44,383 bases of DNA, taken from contig JADFNE010000036.1 in assembly GCA_022563535.1 (NCBI GenBank), forward strand, positions 1-44,383. The letters run 5' to 3'. This stretch comes from Myxococcales bacterium (GTDB lineage: Bacteria > Myxococcota_A > UBA9160 > UBA4427). The notes below the pieces were generated by a model. It made no database searches and had not been told where the DNA came from. It worked only from the letters and a program-made list of their open reading frames with translations. The position numbers and the translations under genes were made by a program. Shown one piece after another: positions 26,969 through 40,633 of the stretch (its first letter is position 1; each line of letters opens with the position of its first letter).

Positions 26969-27703
26969 CTAGTGGGATACCAGAATGGCCTCTTTCCGGA
27001 CCGGCAGGATCCGCGATGCCATCTCGCTCTTGAGCTGGTCGAGTTCGCTGCGGGCCGCATCGCGCCGGGCCTGGTCGCGAAAGCCGCGCAGCTGGTCGCG
27101 CAGGTCACTGCCACCCATTTCGTAATCCAGCTCGCTCTCGGCGTCCATTCGCTCGATCTGTTCTCGCACGCCTTCGAGAGCTTCCATTTCGGCCTCGACC
27201 GAGAGTCCCTCCATGGCGGACTGCAGCCGGCGGCGGGCCTTCGCGTTGGCGAGGGTCGCGAGCATGCGGCCCTTCTCTCTCACCAGCGAGCGAATCTCTT
27301 CGCGGAAACGAACCAGATTGGCTTTGGATTCGTCAGCCTGGGTGCGCACGACGCCGAGTTCCTTTTCAGCGCGCTCGAGGTCTTCGAACAGGACCTGTTT
27401 GCGCGCGATCAGGGTCAGACACGCGTCCTCGTCACCGCGGGTGAGCGAGCGGCGGGTTTCGTCGTGCAACCGCGCAATTTCGGCCCGGCGCTCGCTGATC
27501 TCGGAGTTGAGCTTGCTTCGCATGTAGAGGATGCCCGCAACGGCATCCTTGAGTTCGCGGTACTGCTTCAGGCGCCCGCGAATGGCCTGTTCGTAGATTG
27601 CTTCGGGGCTCTCGAATTCGCGGTCGCGAACCCATACCGCAAACCAGCCCTGGATCAGACTTCGCAGTCGACTGAACATGCTCGAGGGTTTCGTTCCACT
27701 CAT
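26969..27703 (-). CDS. pspA: PspA/IM30 family protein
   Basis: PspA/IM30 proteins are peripheral membrane proteins of the ESCRT-III superfamily that form large assemblies and protect the inner membrane from proton leakage. The 244 residues start with an amphipathic N-terminal stretch (MFSRLRSLIQGWFAVW) and continue as long charged coiled coils (about residues 45-160 and 170-230), as the family does. AGGAG seven bases before ATG 27703 fixes the start, which overlaps the regulator's stop by four bases (ATGA). It is the last gene of a kinase-kinase-regulator operon. In E. coli pspA is sigma-54 dependent and controlled by an AAA+ activator; the same logic with a two-component regulator is inferred here. 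Confidence 0.85.
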   Translation of the reverse strand: MSGTKPSSMFSRLRSLIQGWFAVWVRDREFESPEAIYEQAIRGRLKQYRELKDAVAGILYMRSKLNSEISERRAEIARLHDETRRSLTRGDEDACLTLIARKQVLFEDLERAEKELGVVRTQADESKANLVRFREEIRSLVREKGRMLATLANAKARRRLQSAMEGLSVEAEMEALEGVREQIERMDAESELDYEMGGSDLRDQLRGFRDQARRDAARSELDQLKSEMASRILPVRKEAILVSH

Positions 27704-29148
27704 TGGTTGTCTCCTTTCGTTGATCGACTCTCGGGCGCGGGAGTTCGTTTTGCGGCTTGCTGTTCCGAGCGCAGATCGAGATCTCGGATTTTCTGTTGGA
27801 GGCTCTGCCGCACCATCCCGATATCTCGGGCGGTCTGGGACACGTTGCCGTCGTTCTTGCTGAGGGCACTCGCCAGAAACTCGCGCTCGAAATCGTCGAT
27901 CATTTGCTTCTTGGCTTCCGCAAAGGTGGCGTCGTCTTTCAAGCTGCTCATCCCTGCGCTCGCGTCTCTGCGAACGGGACTCGCTCCGAGCTGCAGGTCG
28001 GCCTCATCAATTTCTTCACCACTCGAGAGCACCGAGGCCTGTTCCAGAACATTGCGCAGTTCGCGGACATTGCCGGGCCAGGAGTGTTCGAGCAGCCGAG
28101 ACATCGCCAGAGGAGAAAGGGTCTTCTTGTCGCGATCCAGACGCTCGGCGACCTGGCGCAGAAAGCGATCGCATAGAGAGGGGAGATCTTCGCTGCGCTC
28201 TCGCAGCGGCGGAAGTTCGACCTGCACCACTTTGAGCCGGTAGTAGAGATCTTCTCGGAAGCGACCTTCTTTTACTTCTTCTTCGAGATTGCGATGGGTC
28301 GCTGCGACCACCCGAACGTCGACCTCGACGTTCTGGCTACCCCCGACACGTTCGAAGCTTCGTTCCTGGAGAACGCGCAACACTTTGGCTTGGGTCTCCG
28401 CTGCCATGTCCCCAATCTCGTCGAGAAAAATGGTGCCACCGTCGGCCAACTCGAAGCGCCCCTCGCGTTGCTTGTCCGCACCAGTGAATGCACCTTTTTC
28501 GTGACCGAAGAGTTCACTCTCGATGAGTTCCCGATTGATCGCGGCACAGTTGACCGCCACAAAGGGGCGATTGCGCCGCCCGCTCGTGTTGTGGATCGCC
28601 TGGGCGACGAGTTCCTTGCCCGTTCCGCTTTCGCCTCGAATCAAGACAGTGAGATCCGTCTCGGCCACCTTCTGGATCGTCTCATAGACACGCCGCATGC
28701 CGGAACTGGTGCCGATGAGGTTTTCGAAACCGAATTCGCGTTGAACGCGTTCGAGCAGCAGTCGGTGTTCGCGCTCGAGGCGATAGCGATCGAGGGCCCG
28801 GCGCACCACCACGCGGATTTCGTCGTTGTCGAACGGTTTGGGGATATAGTCCTCGGCCCCGGCCTTCATTGCATCGACAGCGATCTTTTCGGAACCGTGC
28901 GCCGTGATCATGACCACGGCAGTTTCAGCGCGCAGACCCTTGGCAAATTCGAGAACATCCATCCCACTGGCTCCGCGCCCCAGCGCCAGATCGGTCAGAA
29001 CCAGATCGAATGGTTTGGCTTCGAGGGCCGCCATGGCAACTTCGCCATTTTCTGCCAACTCGACCTCATAGCCCTCGCGGTTCAGCAACCCATTGAGGGC
29101 GACGCGAATGGCGTGTTCGTCTTCGACGACCAGGATTCGGGGTTTCAC
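27700..29148 (-). CDS. NtrC-family sigma-54 response regulator
   Basis: A 482-residue activator of sigma-54 RNA polymerase. The receiver domain (1-120) has the acidic pocket Glu9-Asp10, phosphoacceptor Asp53 (LVLTDLAL), Thr in MITAHG and Lys104 (YIPKPFD). The AAA+ domain (about 142-380) has Walker A GESGTGKE (172-179), the sigma-54-contacting GAFTGA loop (219-224) and Walker B TIFLDE (239-244). The C-terminus is a Fis-type helix-turn-helix (NVSQTARDIGMVRQSLQQKI). All catalytic and contact residues are intact. It overlaps the upstream kinase gene and the downstream pspA gene by four bases each. Likely targets are its own operon, through the sigma-54-like promoter near 31615, and perhaps the sigma-54 site at 13737; both are inference. 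Confidence 0.95.
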   Translation of the reverse strand: MKPRILVVEDEHAIRVALNGLLNREGYEVELAENGEVAMAALEAKPFDLVLTDLALGRGASGMDVLEFAKGLRAETAVVMITAHGSEKIAVDAMKAGAEDYIPKPFDNDEIRVVVRRALDRYRLEREHRLLLERVQREFGFENLIGTSSGMRRVYETIQKVAETDLTVLIRGESGTGKELVAQAIHNTSGRRNRPFVAVNCAAINRELIESELFGHEKGAFTGADKQREGRFELADGGTIFLDEIGDMAAETQAKVLRVLQERSFERVGGSQNVEVDVRVVAATHRNLEEEVKEGRFREDLYYRLKVVQVELPPLRERSEDLPSLCDRFLRQVAERLDRDKKTLSPLAMSRLLEHSWPGNVRELRNVLEQASVLSSGEEIDEADLQLGASPVRRDASAGMSSLKDDATFAEAKKQMIDDFEREFLASALSKNDGNVSQTARDIGMVRQSLQQKIRDLDLRSEQQAAKRTPAPESRSTKGDNQ

Positions 29149-30410
29149 GCGCGCCCTCCCAACGGATCGCCGTTGCCGCCGTCCATCTGTTTGGGAAAGA
29201 CCAGCACGAACTCGGCGCCCTCACCCGGTTGGCCAGCGACCTCGATACTGCCCTGGTGTGCGTCGACGAGCTTCTTGGTGATCGCGAGACCCAGCCCCGT
29301 ACCCCCGCTCTTGGAGGTGTAGAACGGTGCGAAGATCTGGTCCCGGGTCTCGGCATCGATCCCGAACCCGTTGTCGCGGATCTTGACCCACACTTCACTG
29401 CCAGCGAGGTTCTCCCCCATCGAGACTTCGATCACGGGTTCATCGACTTGGGCATCTGCTAGCGCATCAAAGGCGTTGCCCACCAGGTTGATCATCACCC
29501 GGCGCAACTTTTCGGCGTCACCCCGCATGGCACCCTCGCAGTCGAACACACGCCTGATTTCTACTTGCTCTCGTTCACCGCGCTCGCGGAACGTTTCGAG
29601 TGCCGAATCGAGAACGTCACGCATGAGGATCCGGTTCTTGCGGACCTCTTCATCTCGGCCAAAGCGCAGCAGGTGCGAGATCGAGCGCTCCACCCGCTCG
29701 AGTTCGGCCAACGCCACCTGGGCGTACTCTTCATTGTCTACGGCCTCGGGATCTTCTCGCATTTGTTGCAGAAGACTCTTGGCTGCCGTTATTGGATTGC
29801 GAATCTCGTGGGCGATGGAAGCCGAGAGGACTTCGAGGGAATGCGAATGTTCGTCTGCCAGTTTCCGGCGTTCCTGGCTGAGGTTGGCGTGGATGTGTCT
29901 ACTTACCTGATCTTCGACGAGTCGCTCACGCAGACGCGGCTCAATGGTCATCGCGAACAGCCGGCGGCCATACTTTGCGGCCCAGAAGATTGCAGCCACG
30001 AAGCCGAGCGGGGGGATCACTACCAGCAGGAGCAAAACGATCACGGCCCGCTTGCCCGCGCGGAGAAACAACTCGGCGCGATCCTCCGCAAACATTCGCG
30101 CGTCGCGGTACAGGTGTTCCTCGCGGCTCAGAAGCTTTGGGGCGTCGTCGTCGAGTGCATATCGCGAGTCGTCGTTTTCGAATTCATATTCGTCTTCGTA
30201 GTTTCGCCCGTGACGATGCTTGCGGTGGCGTTTTTGTGAACGCGTTTTTTTGCGAAGATCGCTCCACCTCGATTTCGAGTGACTCGACATCTGCGCGTCC
30301 TCCTGCAGGGAGCTGCACCCTGCGGCCTCAAGAGTATCGAGAATTGCAAGGTCATGTCGCGGTGCGTTCTTCATGAAATCGTTCACGGAATGATTCATGC
30401 AGTCGTTCAT
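29145..30410 (-). CDS. Membrane sensor histidine kinase, second of two paralogues
   Basis: A 421-residue HisKA/HATPase_c kinase. A long basic and acidic cytosolic N-terminus (RKKTRSQKRHRKHRHG, then YEDEYEFENDD) precedes one hydrophobic hairpin (about 121-147). The H-box is SASIAHEIRNPITAAKSL with phosphorylated His201; N-box LVGNAFDAL, G1 RDNGFGID, F-box FAPFYTSK and G2 GGTGLGLAI are all present. There is no sizeable periplasmic domain, so it may sense within the membrane or in the cytosol. ATG 30410 overlaps the first kinase's stop (ATGA) and is coupled to it, but ATG 30290 has a better ribosome site (GGAGG nine bases upstream) and may be the real start. It most likely phosphorylates the NtrC-type regulator encoded next. 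Confidence 0.9.
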   Translation of the reverse strand: MNDCMNHSVNDFMKNAPRHDLAILDTLEAAGCSSLQEDAQMSSHSKSRWSDLRKKTRSQKRHRKHRHGRNYEDEYEFENDDSRYALDDDAPKLLSREEHLYRDARMFAEDRAELFLRAGKRAVIVLLLLVVIPPLGFVAAIFWAAKYGRRLFAMTIEPRLRERLVEDQVSRHIHANLSQERRKLADEHSHSLEVLSASIAHEIRNPITAAKSLLQQMREDPEAVDNEEYAQVALAELERVERSISHLLRFGRDEEVRKNRILMRDVLDSALETFRERGEREQVEIRRVFDCEGAMRGDAEKLRRVMINLVGNAFDALADAQVDEPVIEVSMGENLAGSEVWVKIRDNGFGIDAETRDQIFAPFYTSKSGGTGLGLAITKKLVDAHQGSIEVAGQPGEGAEFVLVFPKQMDGGNGDPLGGRA

Positions 30411-31498
30411 ACTTGTGGCTCCCGGGCTTCGTGCGTCTTTGGGAAGGTCAGAAGAAACTCCGTTCCCGAGTCCGGGGCCGCATGGACCTGCATGCTGCCG
30501 CCATGGGATTCCACCACCTTCTTCGAGAGTGCGAGACCCAGGCCGGTCCCGTCCGCCTTGGTGCTGTAGAACGGGTCGAAGATTCTCTTTCGCACCTCGT
30601 CACTCATCCCCGGGCCATTGTCCCGGATCCGGAACCAGACTTCGGTGGCTGCTAGGTTCTCTCCAGCCATGATGACAATACACGGTGTCGGAGTCGCCGC
30701 ATCTTCGAGCGCATCGATCGCGTTGCCGACCAGGTTCACCAGCACCCGGCGAAGTTTTTCGATATCTCCGCGCATCGTGCAAGGCGCTGACACCTCCACG
30801 TCGACGCCAATACCGATCGCATCGATCCGATCTTGTACCGACGCGACCACAGATTGGATGATTTCAGGAAGCGACATCCGCTCGAAACGAAACTCTTCGT
30901 CGCGAGCGTATTTGAGCAGATGCGAGATCGAGCGTTCGACCCGGTCGAGTTCTTCCAGAGCGATCCGGGCAAATTGAACATTCTCACTCGAGCCAGGATC
31001 CTCTCCCATCTGCTGAACGAGACTCTTGGCGGCGGTCACCGGGTTGCGGATCTCGTGAGCGATGGATGCCGATAGATCTTCGAGGGAGCGGGCGTTGGCG
31101 TTCTCTGCTGCGTGCAGACGGTCGGCTCCCCGTTCGGCGTGACGATCCATTTCTTCGGCAATCCAGCGGCCGCGAAGCATGGGCGCCAGAATGGCCGCCA
31201 CGTAGTGAATCGACAGGCCGATCCCCCAGGCCAGGGCGACGATCACGGTCGCACGCACGCTGCGGGAACTCACGAGAATCAGCGTGAGGACCGAGCCGTA
31301 GGCAACGAGGTGGATGAGCCAACCGATCTTCCGATTTGCCCGGCGGCGCGCCGCCCGATAGCGGCGCTCCTCAGGCGTCAGATTGCGCTTCTTTCGCTTG
31401 AGCATCCCCTTCCAACCGGGCCGACGCGAAGGTCTGAAGTCGCGATCTCGGTGTGACTCTTCACCGCCTCCCCAGCGCCGATGCCTTCGCTGCTTCAT
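30407..31498 (-). CDS. Membrane sensor histidine kinase with 2TM domain, first of two paralogues
   Basis: A 363-residue kinase. The N-terminal 45 residues are strongly basic, followed by a two-helix membrane unit (about 58-76 and 84-106) preceded by YRAARRRANRKIGW, typical of the 2TM domain. The catalytic core repeats that of the following gene: SASIAHEIRNPVTAAKSL with His148, LVGNAIDAL, RDNGPGMS, FDPFYSTK and GTGLGLALS. ATG 31498 is chosen because GGAGGG (31506-31511) is seven bases upstream; the open frame to 31630 would begin inside a sigma-54-like promoter. It opens the four-gene operon, and its stop overlaps the second kinase's ATG. Strong similarity of the two cores points to tandem duplication with swapped membrane parts. 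Confidence 0.9.
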   Translation of the reverse strand: MKQRRHRRWGGGEESHRDRDFRPSRRPGWKGMLKRKKRNLTPEERRYRAARRRANRKIGWLIHLVAYGSVLTLILVSSRSVRATVIVALAWGIGLSIHYVAAILAPMLRGRWIAEEMDRHAERGADRLHAAENANARSLEDLSASIAHEIRNPVTAAKSLVQQMGEDPGSSENVQFARIALEELDRVERSISHLLKYARDEEFRFERMSLPEIIQSVVASVQDRIDAIGIGVDVEVSAPCTMRGDIEKLRRVLVNLVGNAIDALEDAATPTPCIVIMAGENLAATEVWFRIRDNGPGMSDEVRKRIFDPFYSTKADGTGLGLALSKKVVESHGGSMQVHAAPDSGTEFLLTFPKTHEAREPQV

Positions 31499-31606
31499 CC
31501 CCCGACCCTCCATCGACAACGCCGCATCCGCCCTCCACATTTGCGAAACGCCACCGACATCCAAACGGTGCATCTGATTCCAGCCGGTCATCATGCCCCT
31601 ACCAAA

Positions 31607-31622
31607 AGCAATCCCCATGCCG
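31607..31622 (-). promoter_or_regulatory. Sigma-54-like promoter of the kinase-kinase-regulator-pspA operon
   Basis: Read on the minus strand, CGGCATG-GGGA-TTGCT fits TGGCACG-N4-TTGCW with two mismatches, keeping GG, GC and their exact spacing, and is followed by TTT. It predicts a start near 31596, giving a 98-base leader before ATG 31498. The operon encodes its own sigma-54 activator, which fits autoregulation. Confidence 0.6.
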
Positions 31623-31755
31623 AAACCCAAACCCTCGCAAAATCAACCCCTTACCACCCCACTCCCCCCGCTCCCCCGCAGCCCCCACCCGACACCTGCA
31701 GCCCCCAACCTGCACCCAAAACCCCCGCGCGCAAGGGGGATCTCACCGCACACCA

Positions 31756-31940
31756 CCCCAGCGGCGCACGGAGACCACACCCCAACAGCCTCAATCAAAG
31801 GAATTGCGCCCAGCAGCCTGAGCGCAGGAATTGTTCCGCACAGCAGCCCAGCGGCGCACGGAGACCACAGCCCTGAGCGCAGGAATTACCGCACAGCAGC
31901 CCAGCGGCGCACGGAGACCACAGCCCTGAGCGCAGGAATT
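31756..31940. repeat. Imperfect tandem repeats, about 53 bp period
   Basis: A unit beginning CCCAGCGGCGCACGGAGACC and ending CTGAGCGCAGGAATT occurs in full at 847-887 and 900-940 of the 31-kb block (31847-31887 and 31900-31940, period 53). A split first copy has its halves at 31757-31779 and 31818-31832. Copies are near-identical, implying recent expansion. Copies abut without unique spacers, so this is not a CRISPR. Confidence 0.8.
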
Positions 31941-31957
31941 GAGCCCTGCTCAATTCC
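31935..31957. repeat. Perfect 10-bp inverted repeat closing the tandem array
   Basis: GGAATTGAGC (31935-31944), loop CCT, GCTCAATTCC (31948-31957). The left arm starts in the last repeat copy. It is a stable stem with a three-base loop, resembling a REP-type or recombination-site end. Confidence 0.75.
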
Positions 31958-32609: not shown

Positions 32610-33152
32610 ATGAGCCAGATCAATGCCGAGCAGAGGCGCGCGCACTACCAGGCGGGACAGGCCGTCGTATGCATCACGTTGTTCGGCGCGAGAGTGATCA
32701 AAAACATCGCGATTTCGAAAAATCCGGACGACACCTCGGGTTTCGAAACCTACTCGCGGCTACCCGTCCCTCTTTCGTGTAGACCCCCCACCCATCGGCG
32801 CGGAGAAGATCGCAGACCCATCGCGGTCGAAGGAATCGTAGACGGGCACGGCGTACTCGCCTATTCGGGCTTGGCCGCGGTCTACGAATGCCTGCGGGCA
32901 GTCGGAGAATCTGAAGAGTTCGATTACCGCGACGCCGACCACGCGGCCCGCGAAGGGTTGTCCAAGCTCGCCAGCAGCATCGGCTTGGAACGTCCGAGTG
33001 ATCACTTTTACGAAGAGTACTGGAATGAAGCCCTGCGGCTGCTCGAGACCCATTGGGAGACCGTAGAGCGCGTCGCGGAAGCCCTCGTCATACACCAGAC
33101 GCTGAACGGCAATCGAGTGGACGAGTTGATCCTGGGCGATGACAATCCGTAA
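32610..33152 (+). CDS. M41 (FtsH-type) peptidase-like protein without the zinc motif
   Basis: The 180 residues resemble the protease domain of FtsH without an AAA+ module. The N-terminus AEQRRAHYQAGQAVVCITLFGARV aligns with the M41 helix AYHEAGHAVV, but HEAGH has become YQAGQ (residues 13-17): both zinc His and the catalytic Glu are replaced. The C-terminus (ALRLLETHWETVERVAEALVIHQTLNGNRVDELIL) is the familiar M41 tail. A catalytically dead scaffold or regulator is therefore likely, unless the family similarity is coincidental. The start ATG 32610 has GGAG rather far upstream. It stands alone between the non-coding region and the tRNA genes. The residue swaps are read directly; the family call is from remembered patterns. 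Confidence 0.65.
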   Translation: MSQINAEQRRAHYQAGQAVVCITLFGARVIKNIAISKNPDDTSGFETYSRLPVPLSCRPPTHRRGEDRRPIAVEGIVDGHGVLAYSGLAAVYECLRAVGESEEFDYRDADHAAREGLSKLASSIGLERPSDHFYEEYWNEALRLLETHWETVERVAEALVIHQTLNGNRVDELILGDDNP

Positions 33153-33311: not shown

Positions 33312-33388
33312 TGGCGCGCCCGGCACGACTCGAACGTGCGACCCTCGGCTCCGCAAGCCGATGCTCTATCCATCTGAGCTACGGGCGC
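33312..33388 (-). tRNA. tRNA-Arg (anticodon GCG)
   Basis: A full cloverleaf: acceptor GCGCCCG/CGGGCGC, D arm GCTC...GAGC, anticodon stem TCGGC/GCCGA with loop TTGCGGA, T arm GCACG-TTCGAGT-CGTGC, discriminator G and encoded CCA. The anticodon reads GCG, which pairs with CGC and CGU. Most bacteria use ACG (modified to inosine) here, so G34 is uncommon. It is the last of four co-oriented tRNA genes. Confidence 0.93.
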
Positions 33389-33478
33389 GTAAATTTTTCT
33401 GGATCCCAATTTAGCGGCGCCGCAGTCTAGCCCACGTTTGCGCCGATTTGACGCCGAATTGAATGTCTGGCGGGATCG

Positions 33479-33566
33479 TGGCGGAGAGAGTGGGATTCGA
33501 ACCCACGGTACCTTGCAGTACACACGCTTTCCAAGCGTGCGCCTTAAGCCGCTCGGCCATCTCTCC
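33479..33566 (-). tRNA. tRNA-Ser (anticodon GGA)
   Basis: Acceptor GGAGAGA/TCTCTCC, anticodon stem CACGC/GCGTG with loop TTGGAAA, a long class II variable arm, T arm GTGGG-TTCGAAT-CCCAC, discriminator G and encoded CCA. It reads UCC and UCU. Confidence 0.95.
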
Positions 33567-33661
33567 GTTTGTTGATTGCCTCGACTGATCCCGCTACTTC
33601 CTGTTTCTATCTCTACCTACTTCTCTTTTTATAATTACTGCAGTCTCTACTTCTGGAGCTC

Positions 33662-33751
33662 TGGCGGAGAGGGAGGGATTCGAACCCTCGATAGGCTTCC
33701 ACCTATACACCCTTAGCAGGGGCGCGCTTTCAGCCGCTCAGCCACCTCTCC
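33662..33751 (-). tRNA. tRNA-Ser (anticodon GCT)
   Basis: Acceptor GGAGAGG/CCTCTCC, anticodon stem CGCCC/GGGTG with loop CTGCTAA, a long variable arm, T arm GAGGG-TTCGAAT-CCCTC, discriminator G and encoded CCA. It reads AGC and AGU. Confidence 0.95.
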
Positions 33752-33873
33752 GCGCGCGAGACGATAACGTACCGAGCCCGTCCGGGATGTCGAAGTCCGC
33801 CGAATTTATCGGGAATTTGGCTGTCCGCCCGTACTTCGCGCAGCACCGTCGGGCGCTCGGGCTCACTGTCGAG

Positions 33874-33963
33874 TGGCGGAGAGGGAGGGATTCGAACCCT
33901 CGAGGGACGTGAATCCCTGCCGGTTTTCAAGACCGGTGCATTCAACCGCTCTGCCACCTCTCC
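33874..33963 (-). tRNA. tRNA-Ser (anticodon TGA)
   Basis: Acceptor GGAGAGG/CCTCTCC, anticodon stem CCGGT/ACCGG with loop CTTGAAA, a long variable arm, T arm GAGGG-TTCGAAT-CCCTC, discriminator G and encoded CCA. It reads UCA and other UCN codons by wobble. Acceptor and T arms are identical to the tRNA-Ser(GCT) gene, suggesting duplication. It is the first gene of the cluster. Confidence 0.95.
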
Positions 33964-36823: not shown

Positions 36824-37636
36824 ATGAGGAGATCGAAGCGCCCTCTCGCGGGGCTGTTGGCCTTGGGAGTTCTATTGCTCCCCTTTTCGGCATACGCCGA
36901 GGCAATGCTGGAATTAGCGGTAGGGTCCCAACGCGAAGCGTTTGACAACGCCGTAGAGATCCGCGGCACGGCGAACACCGAGCTGGCCGAATCGCAGGTA
37001 CGCATCGAGGTTCTCAGCGACAAAACTGACGCGCTTCTCACTCAGTATCAGTCTGCGGTGCGACAACACGAGTCGTTGACCATTTACAACCGTCAGCTGG
37101 ATGCGCTGATCGAAGCGCAGGAAGTCGAGCGTTTGTCGCTCGTGGATCAGGTTGATCGGATTGAACTCGTGAGTCGGGACGTGACGCCGCTGATGCTGAG
37201 AATGATCGAGGCGCTGGATGTCTTCGTAGCGCTCGACATACCGTTCCTCGAGGAAGAGCGCTCAGACCGGATCCTCGATCTCCGCAAGCTGATGATTCGC
37301 GCAGACGTAACCGAAGCCGAGAAGTATCGCCGCATCATGGAGGCCTATCAGATCGAGAACGAATACGGCCGCACAATCGAAGCCTACCGCTCGACACACG
37401 CCAGCGGTGACAAGGAGGTGACCGTCAACTTCCTGCGCGTCGGACGCATCGCACTTGTCTATCAAACGCTCGACGAGTCCAAAGCAGGGGTTTGGAATCA
37501 GAAAATGCGGCGCTGGGAGCCGCTAGAGGGGAGCTTCCGTACAGCGATTCGACAGGGCTTGCGCATCGCGCGCAAGCAAGTCGCCCCAGATCTAATCGGG
37601 CTCCCGCTACCGGCGCCGGAAAAGGGAGATAGCTGA
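36824..37636 (+). CDS. DUF3450 periplasmic protein of a TonB system
   Basis: A signal peptide (RRSKRPLAGLLALGVLLLPFSAYA) leads into a coiled coil (about 45-120) and a compact C-terminal domain (MEAYQIENEYGRTIEAYRS, FLRVGRIALVYQTLDES, WNQKMRRWEPL) typical of DUF3450. Such proteins are encoded first in TonB clusters with an unusually long ExbB/TolQ-like protein (the TtpC type known from marine Vibrio) and are thought to help transmit energy across the periplasm. GGAGA precedes ATG 36824. The stop overlaps the next start by one base (TGATG), so the genes are translationally coupled. Confidence 0.88.
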   Translation: MRRSKRPLAGLLALGVLLLPFSAYAEAMLELAVGSQREAFDNAVEIRGTANTELAESQVRIEVLSDKTDALLTQYQSAVRQHESLTIYNRQLDALIEAQEVERLSLVDQVDRIELVSRDVTPLMLRMIEALDVFVALDIPFLEEERSDRILDLRKLMIRADVTEAEKYRRIMEAYQIENEYGRTIEAYRSTHASGDKEVTVNFLRVGRIALVYQTLDESKAGVWNQKMRRWEPLEGSFRTAIRQGLRIARKQVAPDLIGLPLPAPEKGDS

Positions 37637-39033
37637 TGCGGTTGCAATGTCAGATGCTGATCGGAAGAGGTGCCCTGGTGGCACTGTTGACACTCACCTT
37701 CTTTGTTACTGCGGCAGGGGCCCAGGAGCCGACCAACGGGATCAAGGTCGAAGCGAGTTCGCTCGACGAACTGCTGGACATGGTAAAGACGGGCTTCCGC
37801 CTCGAGCGTGAAGCCACCCAGAAGCGCGAGACAATCTTCGTGCAGGCGAAGGATCTGCAGGAAGAACTGCTCCGGGAGATCGAGGGCCGGGTCGCGACCG
37901 AAGAGGCTCGCGCCGAGCGACTGGAGACGACGTTCGCGATCAACGAAGAGAATCTCGCGAAGCTCGAGGACAACCTCGAACAACGACTCGGAACCATGGG
38001 CGAGCTGTTCGGCGTGGTCCGCCAGGTCGCGGGCGACATGCAGGCCCACGTCTGGGAATCAGTGACGAGTTCGCAGCTCCCGGACCGCGAGAAACTGCTC
38101 GAGAGACTCGGCCGAGGCAAGGAACTCCCGAAGACGGACGATCTCGAGAAGCTCTGGTTCGAGCTTCAGCGCGAGATGACCGAGCAGGGGAAGATCGTAA
38201 GCTACACGACCAACGTGCTCACGATGGACGGCGACGAGCACCCGCGCGAGGTAGTCCGCGCGGGTGTGTTCTCGGTCATTTCGGATGACAAGTACCTGGT
38301 CTGGGACCCGGATATCCAGAAGGTCCGCGAACTGAGCCGCCAGCCCCCGACGCGCTACCTCCAGACCGTAGGTCCGTACCAGGACAACACGGGTGAAGGC
38401 TTCACTCTCCTCGCGGTCGATCCGTCGCGCGGCTCGCTGCTCAACGCTCTGCTCGATTCCCCGAGCCCGACGGAGCGAGTCCAACAGGGCGGCTATGTCG
38501 GTTACGCAATCATTGTGATCGGCATCTTCGCGGGGGTGGTAGGAATCTCGAAATTGGTGACGCTGTCCCAGACGAACCGCAAGGTGAAGGCCCAACGCCT
38601 CCGCAACGACGCGAACCCGGACAACCCATTGGGTCGCGTGCTCCAGGTCTACGCGCAAAACCCGACGCTCGACCCCGAGGCCCTCGAGTTGCGGCTCGAC
38701 CAGCAGGTGATCGAAGAGGCGGACCAACTGGACCACAACATGTGGATCGTGCGCGTGGTCTCCGTGGTCGCGCCGCTCATGGGCCTGCTCGGTACCGTGA
38801 CCGGAATGATCAAGACCTTTCAAGCGATCACAATGTTTGGAGCCGGCGACCCGAAGATGATGGCGGGAGGCATCTCGGAAGCACTGGTCACGACCATGTT
38901 GGGACTCATCACGGCCGCGCCGCTCGTGCTGCTCTACGCGTTCATCTCGACCAGCCGCAAGCGGATCCTCGCGGTTCTGATGGGTCAGAGCGCCGGCCTG
39001 GTAGCGATGCGGATCGAAGAGCCCAATGTCTGA
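37636..39033 (+). CDS. Long MotA/TolQ/ExbB proton channel protein (TtpC-like)
   Basis: The 465 residues comprise a signal sequence, a periplasmic coiled-coil region (about 40-150) and a globular part (to about 280). The MotA/TolQ/ExbB channel follows, with helices near YVGYAIIVIGIFAGVVGI (about 292), VVAPLMGLLGTVTGMIKTF (about 378) and LVTTMLGLITAAPLVLLYAF (about 415). The long periplasmic extension distinguishes TtpC-type partners from ordinary ExbB. With ExbD it should conduct protons to power TonB. It overlaps the following exbB gene by 8 bases. Confidence 0.9.
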   Translation: MRLQCQMLIGRGALVALLTLTFFVTAAGAQEPTNGIKVEASSLDELLDMVKTGFRLEREATQKRETIFVQAKDLQEELLREIEGRVATEEARAERLETTFAINEENLAKLEDNLEQRLGTMGELFGVVRQVAGDMQAHVWESVTSSQLPDREKLLERLGRGKELPKTDDLEKLWFELQREMTEQGKIVSYTTNVLTMDGDEHPREVVRAGVFSVISDDKYLVWDPDIQKVRELSRQPPTRYLQTVGPYQDNTGEGFTLLAVDPSRGSLLNALLDSPSPTERVQQGGYVGYAIIVIGIFAGVVGISKLVTLSQTNRKVKAQRLRNDANPDNPLGRVLQVYAQNPTLDPEALELRLDQQVIEEADQLDHNMWIVRVVSVVAPLMGLLGTVTGMIKTFQAITMFGAGDPKMMAGGISEALVTTMLGLITAAPLVLLYAFISTSRKRILAVLMGQSAGLVAMRIEEPNV

Positions 39034-39553
39034 GATCGAGGCATATGCGGCGGTCCGCGACTTCGTTGAGACCGGGGGCGACGTGCTCCTTGTCATCGGA
39101 GTGGTGACCTTCTGGATGTGGATATTGATCCTAGAGCGCTACTGGTTCTTCTTCTGGGTTCACCCCGGGTCCGCAGATCAGGTTCAGCTAGAATGGGACG
39201 CGCGCGAGGACCATAAGAGCTGGGGCGCCCACAAGATTCGGCTACTGCTCCTCACGGACGTGGATATCGAACTCCAGCGCGGGCTTCAGATTATTGTGTC
39301 GCTGGTAGCGCTGTGCCCGATGCTGGGGCTGCTGGGAACCGTCACCGGCATGATCGAGGTGTTCGACGTAATGGCGAGTTCCGGCAGCGGAAATGTGCGC
39401 GGTATGGCCGGAGGCATTTCAAAGGCGACACTGCCGACAATGGCGGGAATGATGGCGGCGCTCTCCGGGCTGGTTTTCAGCGTTCAGCTCGAGCGTCGCG
39501 CGAAAAAAGAAGGCCGGCTGATGTCGGATCGACTGATCACCACGCACGTTTGA
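39026..39553 (+). CDS. exbB: ExbB-type proton channel protein
   Basis: A 175-residue ExbB/TolQ protein with the usual three helices: LLVIGVVTFWMWILILERYWFFF, VSLVALCPMLGLLGTVTGMIEVF, and ATLPTMAGMMAALSGLVFSVQL. ExbB and ExbD form the stator that couples the proton gradient to TonB. It overlaps the long TtpC-like gene by 8 bases and precedes exbD by 60 bases. Confidence 0.93.
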   Translation: MSEIEAYAAVRDFVETGGDVLLVIGVVTFWMWILILERYWFFFWVHPGSADQVQLEWDAREDHKSWGAHKIRLLLLTDVDIELQRGLQIIVSLVALCPMLGLLGTVTGMIEVFDVMASSGSGNVRGMAGGISKATLPTMAGMMAALSGLVFSVQLERRAKKEGRLMSDRLITTHV

Positions 39554-39612
39554 GCACTACACAGAGCTCGATAAAGTTCGTACAGCGAAGGCCCGAAGGA
39601 GAGACTCGATAG

Positions 39613-40023
39613 ATGCGGATGAACATGAACCAATTCGACGACGATAATGAAAACGAGGTGGATCTCACGCCGATGCTCGACGTCGTGTTCATCATGCTGA
39701 TCTTCTTCATCGTGACGGCTTCCTTCGTGAAGGAGTCCGGGATCGAGGTCAACAAGCCGAACGCGGTGACGGCCGAGCGCAAGGAAAAGGGCAACATCCT
39801 CGTAGCGATTTCAGCGGACAACCAAATCTGGATCGACCGACGCCAGGTCGACCCGCGGGCGTTGCGGGCGAACATCGAGCGCATGCACGCGGAAAACCCG
39901 AATGGCGCCGTTGTGATCCAGGCTGACACCGAGAGCAAGAACGGGTTGCTCGTCCTGGTGATGGACGCGGCACGCCAGGCAGGCGTGAAGAGCGTGTCGA
40001 TCGCCGCCGAAGTGGTTGAGTAG
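39613..40023 (+). CDS. exbD: ExbD/TolR biopolymer transport protein
   Basis: A 136-residue single-pass protein with the conserved NEVDLTPMLDVVFIMLIFFIV membrane entry, whose Asp in LTPMLDV is the proton-carrying residue, and a periplasmic domain ending ARQAGVKSVSIAA. The ribosome site (GGAGAG) precedes ATG 39613. The stop is 5 bases before the TonB start. Confidence 0.95.
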   Translation: MRMNMNQFDDDNENEVDLTPMLDVVFIMLIFFIVTASFVKESGIEVNKPNAVTAERKEKGNILVAISADNQIWIDRRQVDPRALRANIERMHAENPNGAVVIQADTESKNGLLVLVMDAARQAGVKSVSIAAEVVE

Positions 40024-40027
40024 GTGC

Positions 40028-40633
40028 ATGGCAATTCGACTTCTTTCAGTGACGATGGTGGCAGCGGCCATCACTTTTTCGCTCTTCTGGGCTATGCAGG
40101 CGCTAGTTGGAGTCGCTTGGGAGGCGATCGAAGCAAAGCCAGCACTCTCGATAGACTTTGTCCGGTTAAAGCGCGATACCTCGGCCGAGACAAAGAAGCG
40201 CGAGATCCCGGACCGGAAGAAGCCCGAAGCGCCGCCGCCGCCGCCGCAGATCAGCGTCACCGAGAACCTGAACCCCGACGATACGGCGGGCATGATCGTT
40301 CCCATGATCGAAGGCACACTCGATCTGGCGATTGCCGACCTGGGTACCGGGGGCTCCGACCGCGATGTGGTACCGCTGGTGCGCATCAAACCCCAGTACC
40401 CGATGAGCGCGAAGCAGCGCGGCATCGAGGGCTGGGTCGAACTCATGTACACGATCACGAAGGCAGGCACGGTCAAGGACATCAGAGTTACCGCCTCCCA
40501 TCCTGGATCGATCTTCAACAAGTCTGCAGTTCAGGCTGTGAGTAAGTGGAAGTACAATGCCAAAGTCGAGCAGGGAGTCGCAGTAGAGCGACCCGGTGTC
40601 CGGCAGCGAATCAAGTTCCAGCTACCGAGGTGA
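40028..40633 (+). CDS. tonB: TonB family protein
   Basis: TonB spans the periplasm and energises outer-membrane receptors. The 201 residues have an N-terminal membrane anchor (about 5-28), a Pro/Lys-rich segment (DRKKPEAPPPPPQ) shorter than in E. coli TonB, and a C-terminal TonB domain (IKPQYPMSAKQRGIEGWVEL, FNKSAVQAVSKWKY). The TtpC-type systems use such short TonBs. ATG 40028 is preferred over the in-frame TTG 40016, which overlaps exbD. Confidence 0.92.
   Translation: MAIRLLSVTMVAAAITFSLFWAMQALVGVAWEAIEAKPALSIDFVRLKRDTSAETKKREIPDRKKPEAPPPPPQISVTENLNPDDTAGMIVPMIEGTLDLAIADLGTGGSDRDVVPLVRIKPQYPMSAKQRGIEGWVELMYTITKAGTVKDIRVTASHPGSIFNKSAVQAVSKWKYNAKVEQGVAVERPGVRQRIKFQLPR

Follow-up and report, generated by a model that had tools for sequence, protein, structure and literature searches.

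FtsHi1-5 of plant chloroplasts are documented M41 pseudoproteases, inactive members of the peptidase family whose zinc motifs read TEVGV, NEAAM, REAAV and WAAGR (PMC11266112) and which carry an AAA+ domain (PMC11266112, PMC9020784). In the literature covered, M41 pseudoproteases have so far been plastid proteins joined to an AAA+ motor, and our search of open-licence papers returned no stand-alone bacterial M41 pseudoprotease family. Here we describe a protein for which FtsHi is the nearest precedent. It resembles FtsHi1-5, which are known to be functional, in its M41 fold, in the replacement of the zinc motif and apparently of the third ligand, and in being conserved. Unlike the FtsHi proteins, which have an AAA+ ATPase domain and a membrane anchor and form part of a hetero-oligomeric import motor, it consists of the 180-aa domain alone and occurs in bacteria; the AAA+ part that would make it a protein of the FtsHi type is missing.

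The window, by which we mean the whole 44,383-nt stretch of DNA analyzed (Myxococcales bacterium, contig JADFNE010000036.1), contains a single open frame at 32610-33152 on the plus strand, from an ATG at 32610 to a TAA at 33150-33152, which is a real gene and whose translation opens MSQINAEQRRAHYQAGQAVVC... The gene and its features are:

32610..33152, plus strand, pseudoprotease gene, 180 aa (model, fold matches, orthologues, dN/dS)
32646..32660, plus strand, erased zinc motif, residues 13-17 reading YQAGQ in place of FtsH HEAGH (translation, model alignment, columns)
32670..32672, plus strand, invariant Cys21 on the zinc helix, two turns past the former first His (i+8) (family alignment)
32748..32801, plus strand, T47-x-S-x-x-P-x-P-x-x-C-R-P...R64, the former substrate strand and an inserted loop not in FtsH (family alignment)
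32841..32864, plus strand, D78-x-H-G-x-x-x-Y85, on the counterpart of the FtsH GGRAAEE helix (family alignment, model)
32880..32882, plus strand, Val91, standing where FtsH has its conserved GRAAEE Glu (E. coli E479, by count) (column comparison)
32946..32948, plus strand, Ala113, presumed position of the Asp that is the third zinc ligand (column contents, model helix order)
33000..33128, plus strand, C-terminal M41 tail, residues 131-173 (partial PF01434 match, profile match)

A preliminary description made from the sequence had stated that there is no AAA+ module, and this is confirmed, because 180 aa leaves no room for one and domain searches gave no AAA match. The protein is a single domain, with neither the AAA+ ATPase module nor the N-terminal membrane anchor that define FtsH among AAA+ proteases. 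An NCBIfam search with the window protein and searches of plasmid and phage sequences gave no match, and a PHROGs search gave nothing convincing. Weak matches to query P0001 elsewhere in the genome were set aside as unrelated, FtsH excepted.

Pfam PF01434 (Peptidase_M41) matched the window protein at E = 0.022 and 15 bits, over the C-terminal 43 residues only and below the gathering score of 29.9 bits; because the M41 match of this sequence alone was sub-threshold, homology needed independent proof. Across the family, PF01434 matches 12 of 23 members with an E of 1 or less (2.1e-4 and 21.6 bits for the best), and a family profile compared with FtsH in the PDB gave a weak alignment (E 0.03) in which the HEAGH helix and C-terminal tail come in the correct order. 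Profile-profile comparison with FtsH domains (hhalign), which aligned just the two ends of the M41 domain, gave E 2.5e-6 for the N-terminal part with the HEAGH helix when subset A3 was used (seven members, namely the both-His members, zinc-retaining ones included, and one with the first His only) and E 5e-5 for the C-terminal tail with the whole family (A1). An AlphaFold2 model of the window protein, built on the 23-orthologue alignment, has a mean pLDDT of 89.7 and a pTM of 0.86. Its top Foldseek matches in the PDB are all M41-domain proteins, with chloroplast FtsHi-complex chains first (best match 8xks_G, E 9.6e-6), followed by bacterial FtsH and YME1. VIA-align gave Z 14.2 to both 8xks_F (FtsHi complex) and 3kds_E (T. 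maritima FtsH) over 146-155 residues, and Z 11-14 over about 124-155 residues for the protease domains of FtsH, FtsHi, YME1 and AFG3L2, against 3.2 for the best unrelated fold; the model of an orthologue that keeps HEAGH reached Z 15.9-16.2 to the same set of M41 structures. Identity to the FtsH protease domain is about 12-16%. We conclude that the window protein, as modeled, is an FtsH protease (M41) domain without the AAA+ module, and the C-terminal M41 tail noted in the preliminary description is recovered by both the partial PF01434 match and the profile match. The shared features are the helix order, the position of the HExxH helix, the T..LP strand, the GRAAEE helix and the C-terminal tail; unlike FtsH, the window protein has no zinc site and no AAA+ module, an inserted CRP..RRG loop is present, and the FtsH segment GPVSYG..VFLGRD, which links the third-ligand helix to the C-terminal helices, is missing throughout the family.

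Structural offsets place model residue 3 at residue 413 of T. maritima FtsH and at 404 of E. coli FtsH, and model residue 2 at 563 of AFG3L2. With the first zinc His at 423, 414 and 574, respectively, these offsets put residue 13 of the window protein on the first zinc His, provided that the first helix aligns without gaps. The original observation that YQAGQ stands at the place of HEAGH, with both zinc His and the catalytic Glu replaced, therefore agrees with the translation and the model offsets, and the HExxH motif with its catalytic Glu, the mark of an active M41 peptidase, is absent. On the GRAAEE helix the accessory Glu has likewise given way to V91, a change not seen in the preliminary description. 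A113 appears to stand where the third ligand Asp should be: the column was chosen from the helix order of the model and from its Asp content, since it holds Asp in every both-His member and is invariant Asp in the seven-member A3, and neither MAFFT nor hhalign aligned the FtsH Asp there.

Whole-genome searches recovered a single orthologue from each of 23 of the 30 genomes of the window's taxonomic family (Myxococcota, GTDB-style grouping). A 24th is cut by a contig end, its N-terminal piece reading HHEAAHAVVCFV, so that the gene is single-copy in 24 of 30 genomes and absent from six. Identity of the orthologues to the window protein is 31-63%. No orthologue was found in 61 other genomes of the class or in the rest of the 379 sampled genomes of the phylum, where the weak matches were FtsH and the stand-alone M41 protein L071 only. 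A protein scan of genome contigs with the single window sequence gave nothing, and the alignment-based scan returned 17 named records, all from Myxococcota or 'Deltaproteobacteria' MAGs. In genomes without the gene, no diverged copy was found beside the DUF3450 gene that adjoins it elsewhere; an HHAAHA match near DUF3450 in one of them was rejected as a shadow reading frame. Other stand-alone M41-like proteins do occur. L107 (1581-2135, G007) and L071 (1489-2091, G058) are single M41 domains without AAA+, like the window protein, but they keep HEAGH, lack the CRP..RRG and DxHG..Y motifs, are sporadic and are not orthologous. A 214-aa Peptidase M41 domain-containing protein of an uncultured Caudovirales phage has the same fold as a single domain without AAA+, and 5iqj from Vibrio cholerae is a stand-alone M41-like protein likened to ours by fold alone.

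Within the family the zinc site varies widely. At columns 13-17 and 113, the window genus reads YQAGQ/A (window), MRAGQ/A, HQAGQ/T and MRAGQ/A. Elsewhere we observed YFAGK/D (L009), HHAAH/D (L010), HEAGH/D (L011), HEAAH/D (L012 and L013), HQAGH/D (L020 and L027), HDAAQ/D (L025), SAAAQ/G (L026) and AAAAR/D (L015 and L021), and REAGR/G or A in eight members of g10, a REAGR clade without any zinc His. G023 keeps HEAAH, with its Asp region cut off. Members of the window genus, L009 and L015/L021 have also lost the accessory GRAAEE Glu. A search for YQAGQ-type members had been proposed; many members of the family share the loss of the site, while the motif itself varies (MRAGQ, HQAGQ, REAGR, AAAAR). 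When the motif and Asp columns were removed before tree building, the resulting tree called for three or more changes in each of the His pair, the catalytic Glu and the Asp. One loss falls inside the single genus g11, where three genomes have HEAAH and two have AAAAR; from these sequences we count at least three independent site losses. HEAGH is the likely ancestral state given the outgroup of FtsH and L071, with a weakly supported root branch (63/85). Independent pairs were too few for any co-loss of site residues to reach significance.

The zinc-site columns rank 90th, 119th and 122nd of 180 for conservation, near or beyond the median variability of the family; in FtsH of the same clade all zinc-site columns are invariant. 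Other columns of the family are invariant, among them C21, L24, G26, V29, T47, S49, P52, P54, R58, P59, R64, D78, G81, Y85, Y137, E140 and A141, and none of the invariant columns is catalytic in M41. A variable zinc site beside these invariant columns means that selection keeps the scaffold and a new residue set, not the cutting site. Pairwise NG86 dN/dS ranged from 0.13 to 0.33 within the window genus and from 0.03 to 0.20 within the His-less REAGR clade; synonymous sites are near saturation in several pairs, which makes the values rough, and all lie far below 1. Judged by these ratios, purifying selection acts on the gene even where the site has been lost. A conserved peptidase fold, loss of the catalytic residues and maintenance by selection, the features of a pseudoprotease, are thus all found here, and the preliminary proposal of a pseudoprotease stands on these and on the loss of the site in many members.

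We therefore favor, with some confidence, a stand-alone soluble pseudoprotease of M41 fold that acts by binding. Because its relatives lost the zinc site several times while the rest of the protein was conserved, the window protein probably works by binding rather than cutting, and it is in this sense that we infer both its peptidase inactivity and its binding function. The family ancestor would have had an M41 zinc site (HEAGH and Asp); the window lineage would then have replaced the two His, the Asp and both the catalytic and the accessory Glu, with the predicted loss of M41-type zinc binding and cutting. The product is probably a cytosolic binding protein, such as an adaptor, anti-activator or scaffold. 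Its former substrate cleft, putatively holding a peptide or partner, would be lined by the T-x-S-x-x-P-x-P-x-x-C-R-P...R loop and the D-x-H-G-x-x-x-Y helix, a location suggested by conservation. In L011, L012 and L013, where a complete HEAGH/HEAAH and Asp site persists, cutting may still take place, and the function shared across the family could then be one that leaves cutting optional. For the family as a whole, we lean slightly toward a lineage-restricted conversion of M41 from a protease domain to a binding or regulatory module that stands alone and does not cut, that has acquired a new invariant surface (C21, T47-S49, LPxP, CRP..RRG, DxHG..Y) and of which all stages from intact to erased are still extant in single copy. 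These form a graded series, from an intact site, through sites that retain the zinc ligands but have Gln or His for the catalytic Glu, to loss of the ligands; a free-standing bacterial version with graded losses in true orthologues would let the shift from protease to non-protease be tested directly.

The partner proposed in the preliminary description was FtsH, and this part of the proposal found no specific support. A dedicated regulator that docks on the FtsH protease ring or captures FtsH substrates would fit the homology to the FtsH protease domain, the plant FtsHi pseudoproteases that act inside FtsH-type hetero-complexes (PMC11266112), and the window genome itself, whose one M41 match above cut-off is an intact FtsH (HEAGH) on contig 25. 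However, the protein lacks the AAA+ module by which FtsH subunits also associate; ftsH is not linked to the gene in any locus examined; a single one of the related genomes searched lacks FtsH, which also occurs in genomes without the gene, whereas the pseudoprotease gene is confined to one taxonomic family; and the loop of FtsH before its C-terminal helices was lost and another gained. We consider such a regulator unlikely. An equally doubtful reading takes C21, C57, D78, H80, Y85, R58 and R64 as a new catalytic or metal site, making the protein a different enzyme or a metal sensor. They show little or no variation among orthologues with 31-63% identity to the window protein, their types (Cys, His, Asp, Arg and Tyr) are typical of catalytic or ligand positions, and C21 lies eight residues past the first His (i+8) on what was the zinc helix; yet two members of the window genus carry Ser instead of C57, one orthologue has Tyr in place of H80, and structural roles can account for many invariant residues.

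Set against binding by a conserved pseudoprotease, simple decay fares worse still. It had been suggested that close homologues with HEAGH would point to recent decay rather than to a family. Such homologues exist, in other genera of the taxonomic family (L011, L012 and L013 with the Asp as well, and G023 with HEAAH), and together with the scattering of the losses over the tree they would suit an ordinary stand-alone M41 peptidase family whose window lineage is losing the gene. The losses, however, are old, repeated and followed by conservation, and so recent decay is not the explanation: no stop or frameshift was found inside any aligned member (a TGA in G017 is the gene's own end), other columns are invariant, and the dN/dS values in site-less lineages argue against decay, which we regard as very improbable. 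Least credible of all is peptide cutting by a relocated or non-canonical mechanism, in favor of which one can cite the retained M41 fold and former substrate strand (T..LP), but every catalytic and ligand residue of M41 has been exchanged in the window protein, and differently in each lineage.

Two neighboring operons bear on the possible setting of the putative binding protein:

26969..31630, minus strand, divergent operon of two histidine kinases, an NtrC-type response regulator and PspA/IM30, the last at 26969-27679 (neighbourhood comparison)
36824..40633, plus strand, DUF3450-ExbB-ExbB-ExbD-TonB operon, 3.7 kb from the gene in the window, with ExbD and TonB at 39613-40633

The operon of histidine kinases, NtrC-type sigma-54 activator and PspA/IM30 is divergent from the gene in the window genus and in one neighboring genus, with two of the five loci ending inside kinase genes and the rest of the operon lying beyond the sequence there. 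In six loci of other genera, the gene is directly divergent from DUF3450-ExbB-ExbB-ExbD-TonB, with MATE, PEGA and MotA/ExbB genes downstream in most. In the REAGR clade its neighbor on one side is a metallo-beta-lactamase-fold gene, and on the other a LuxR-type response regulator with PEGA and ExbB genes beyond it. The cell envelope is the common thread of these neighbors and hints at a role in its regulation, which we infer from the neighbors only; as they differ between genera, the link is a weak one.

Several smaller features of the window were also recorded. The adjacent kinases at 29145-31630 (minus strand), followed by the NtrC-type regulator and PspA/IM30, are mutually similar (one similarity cluster) and look like a duplicated sensor in an envelope-stress operon. 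The intergenic gap of about 1 kb between the kinase operon and the pseudoprotease gene holds an array of a 53-bp unit at 31817-31941 (2.3 copies, 93% match). In the window, the divergent pairing with the DUF3450-TonB operon is interrupted by tRNAs and two methyltransferase-like genes. A cluster of four tRNA genes (Arg-GCG, Ser-GGA, Ser-GCT and Ser-TGA) lies at 33312-33963 on the minus strand, just downstream of the pseudoprotease gene, and the tRNA-Arg is kept beside that gene in L031 and L032.
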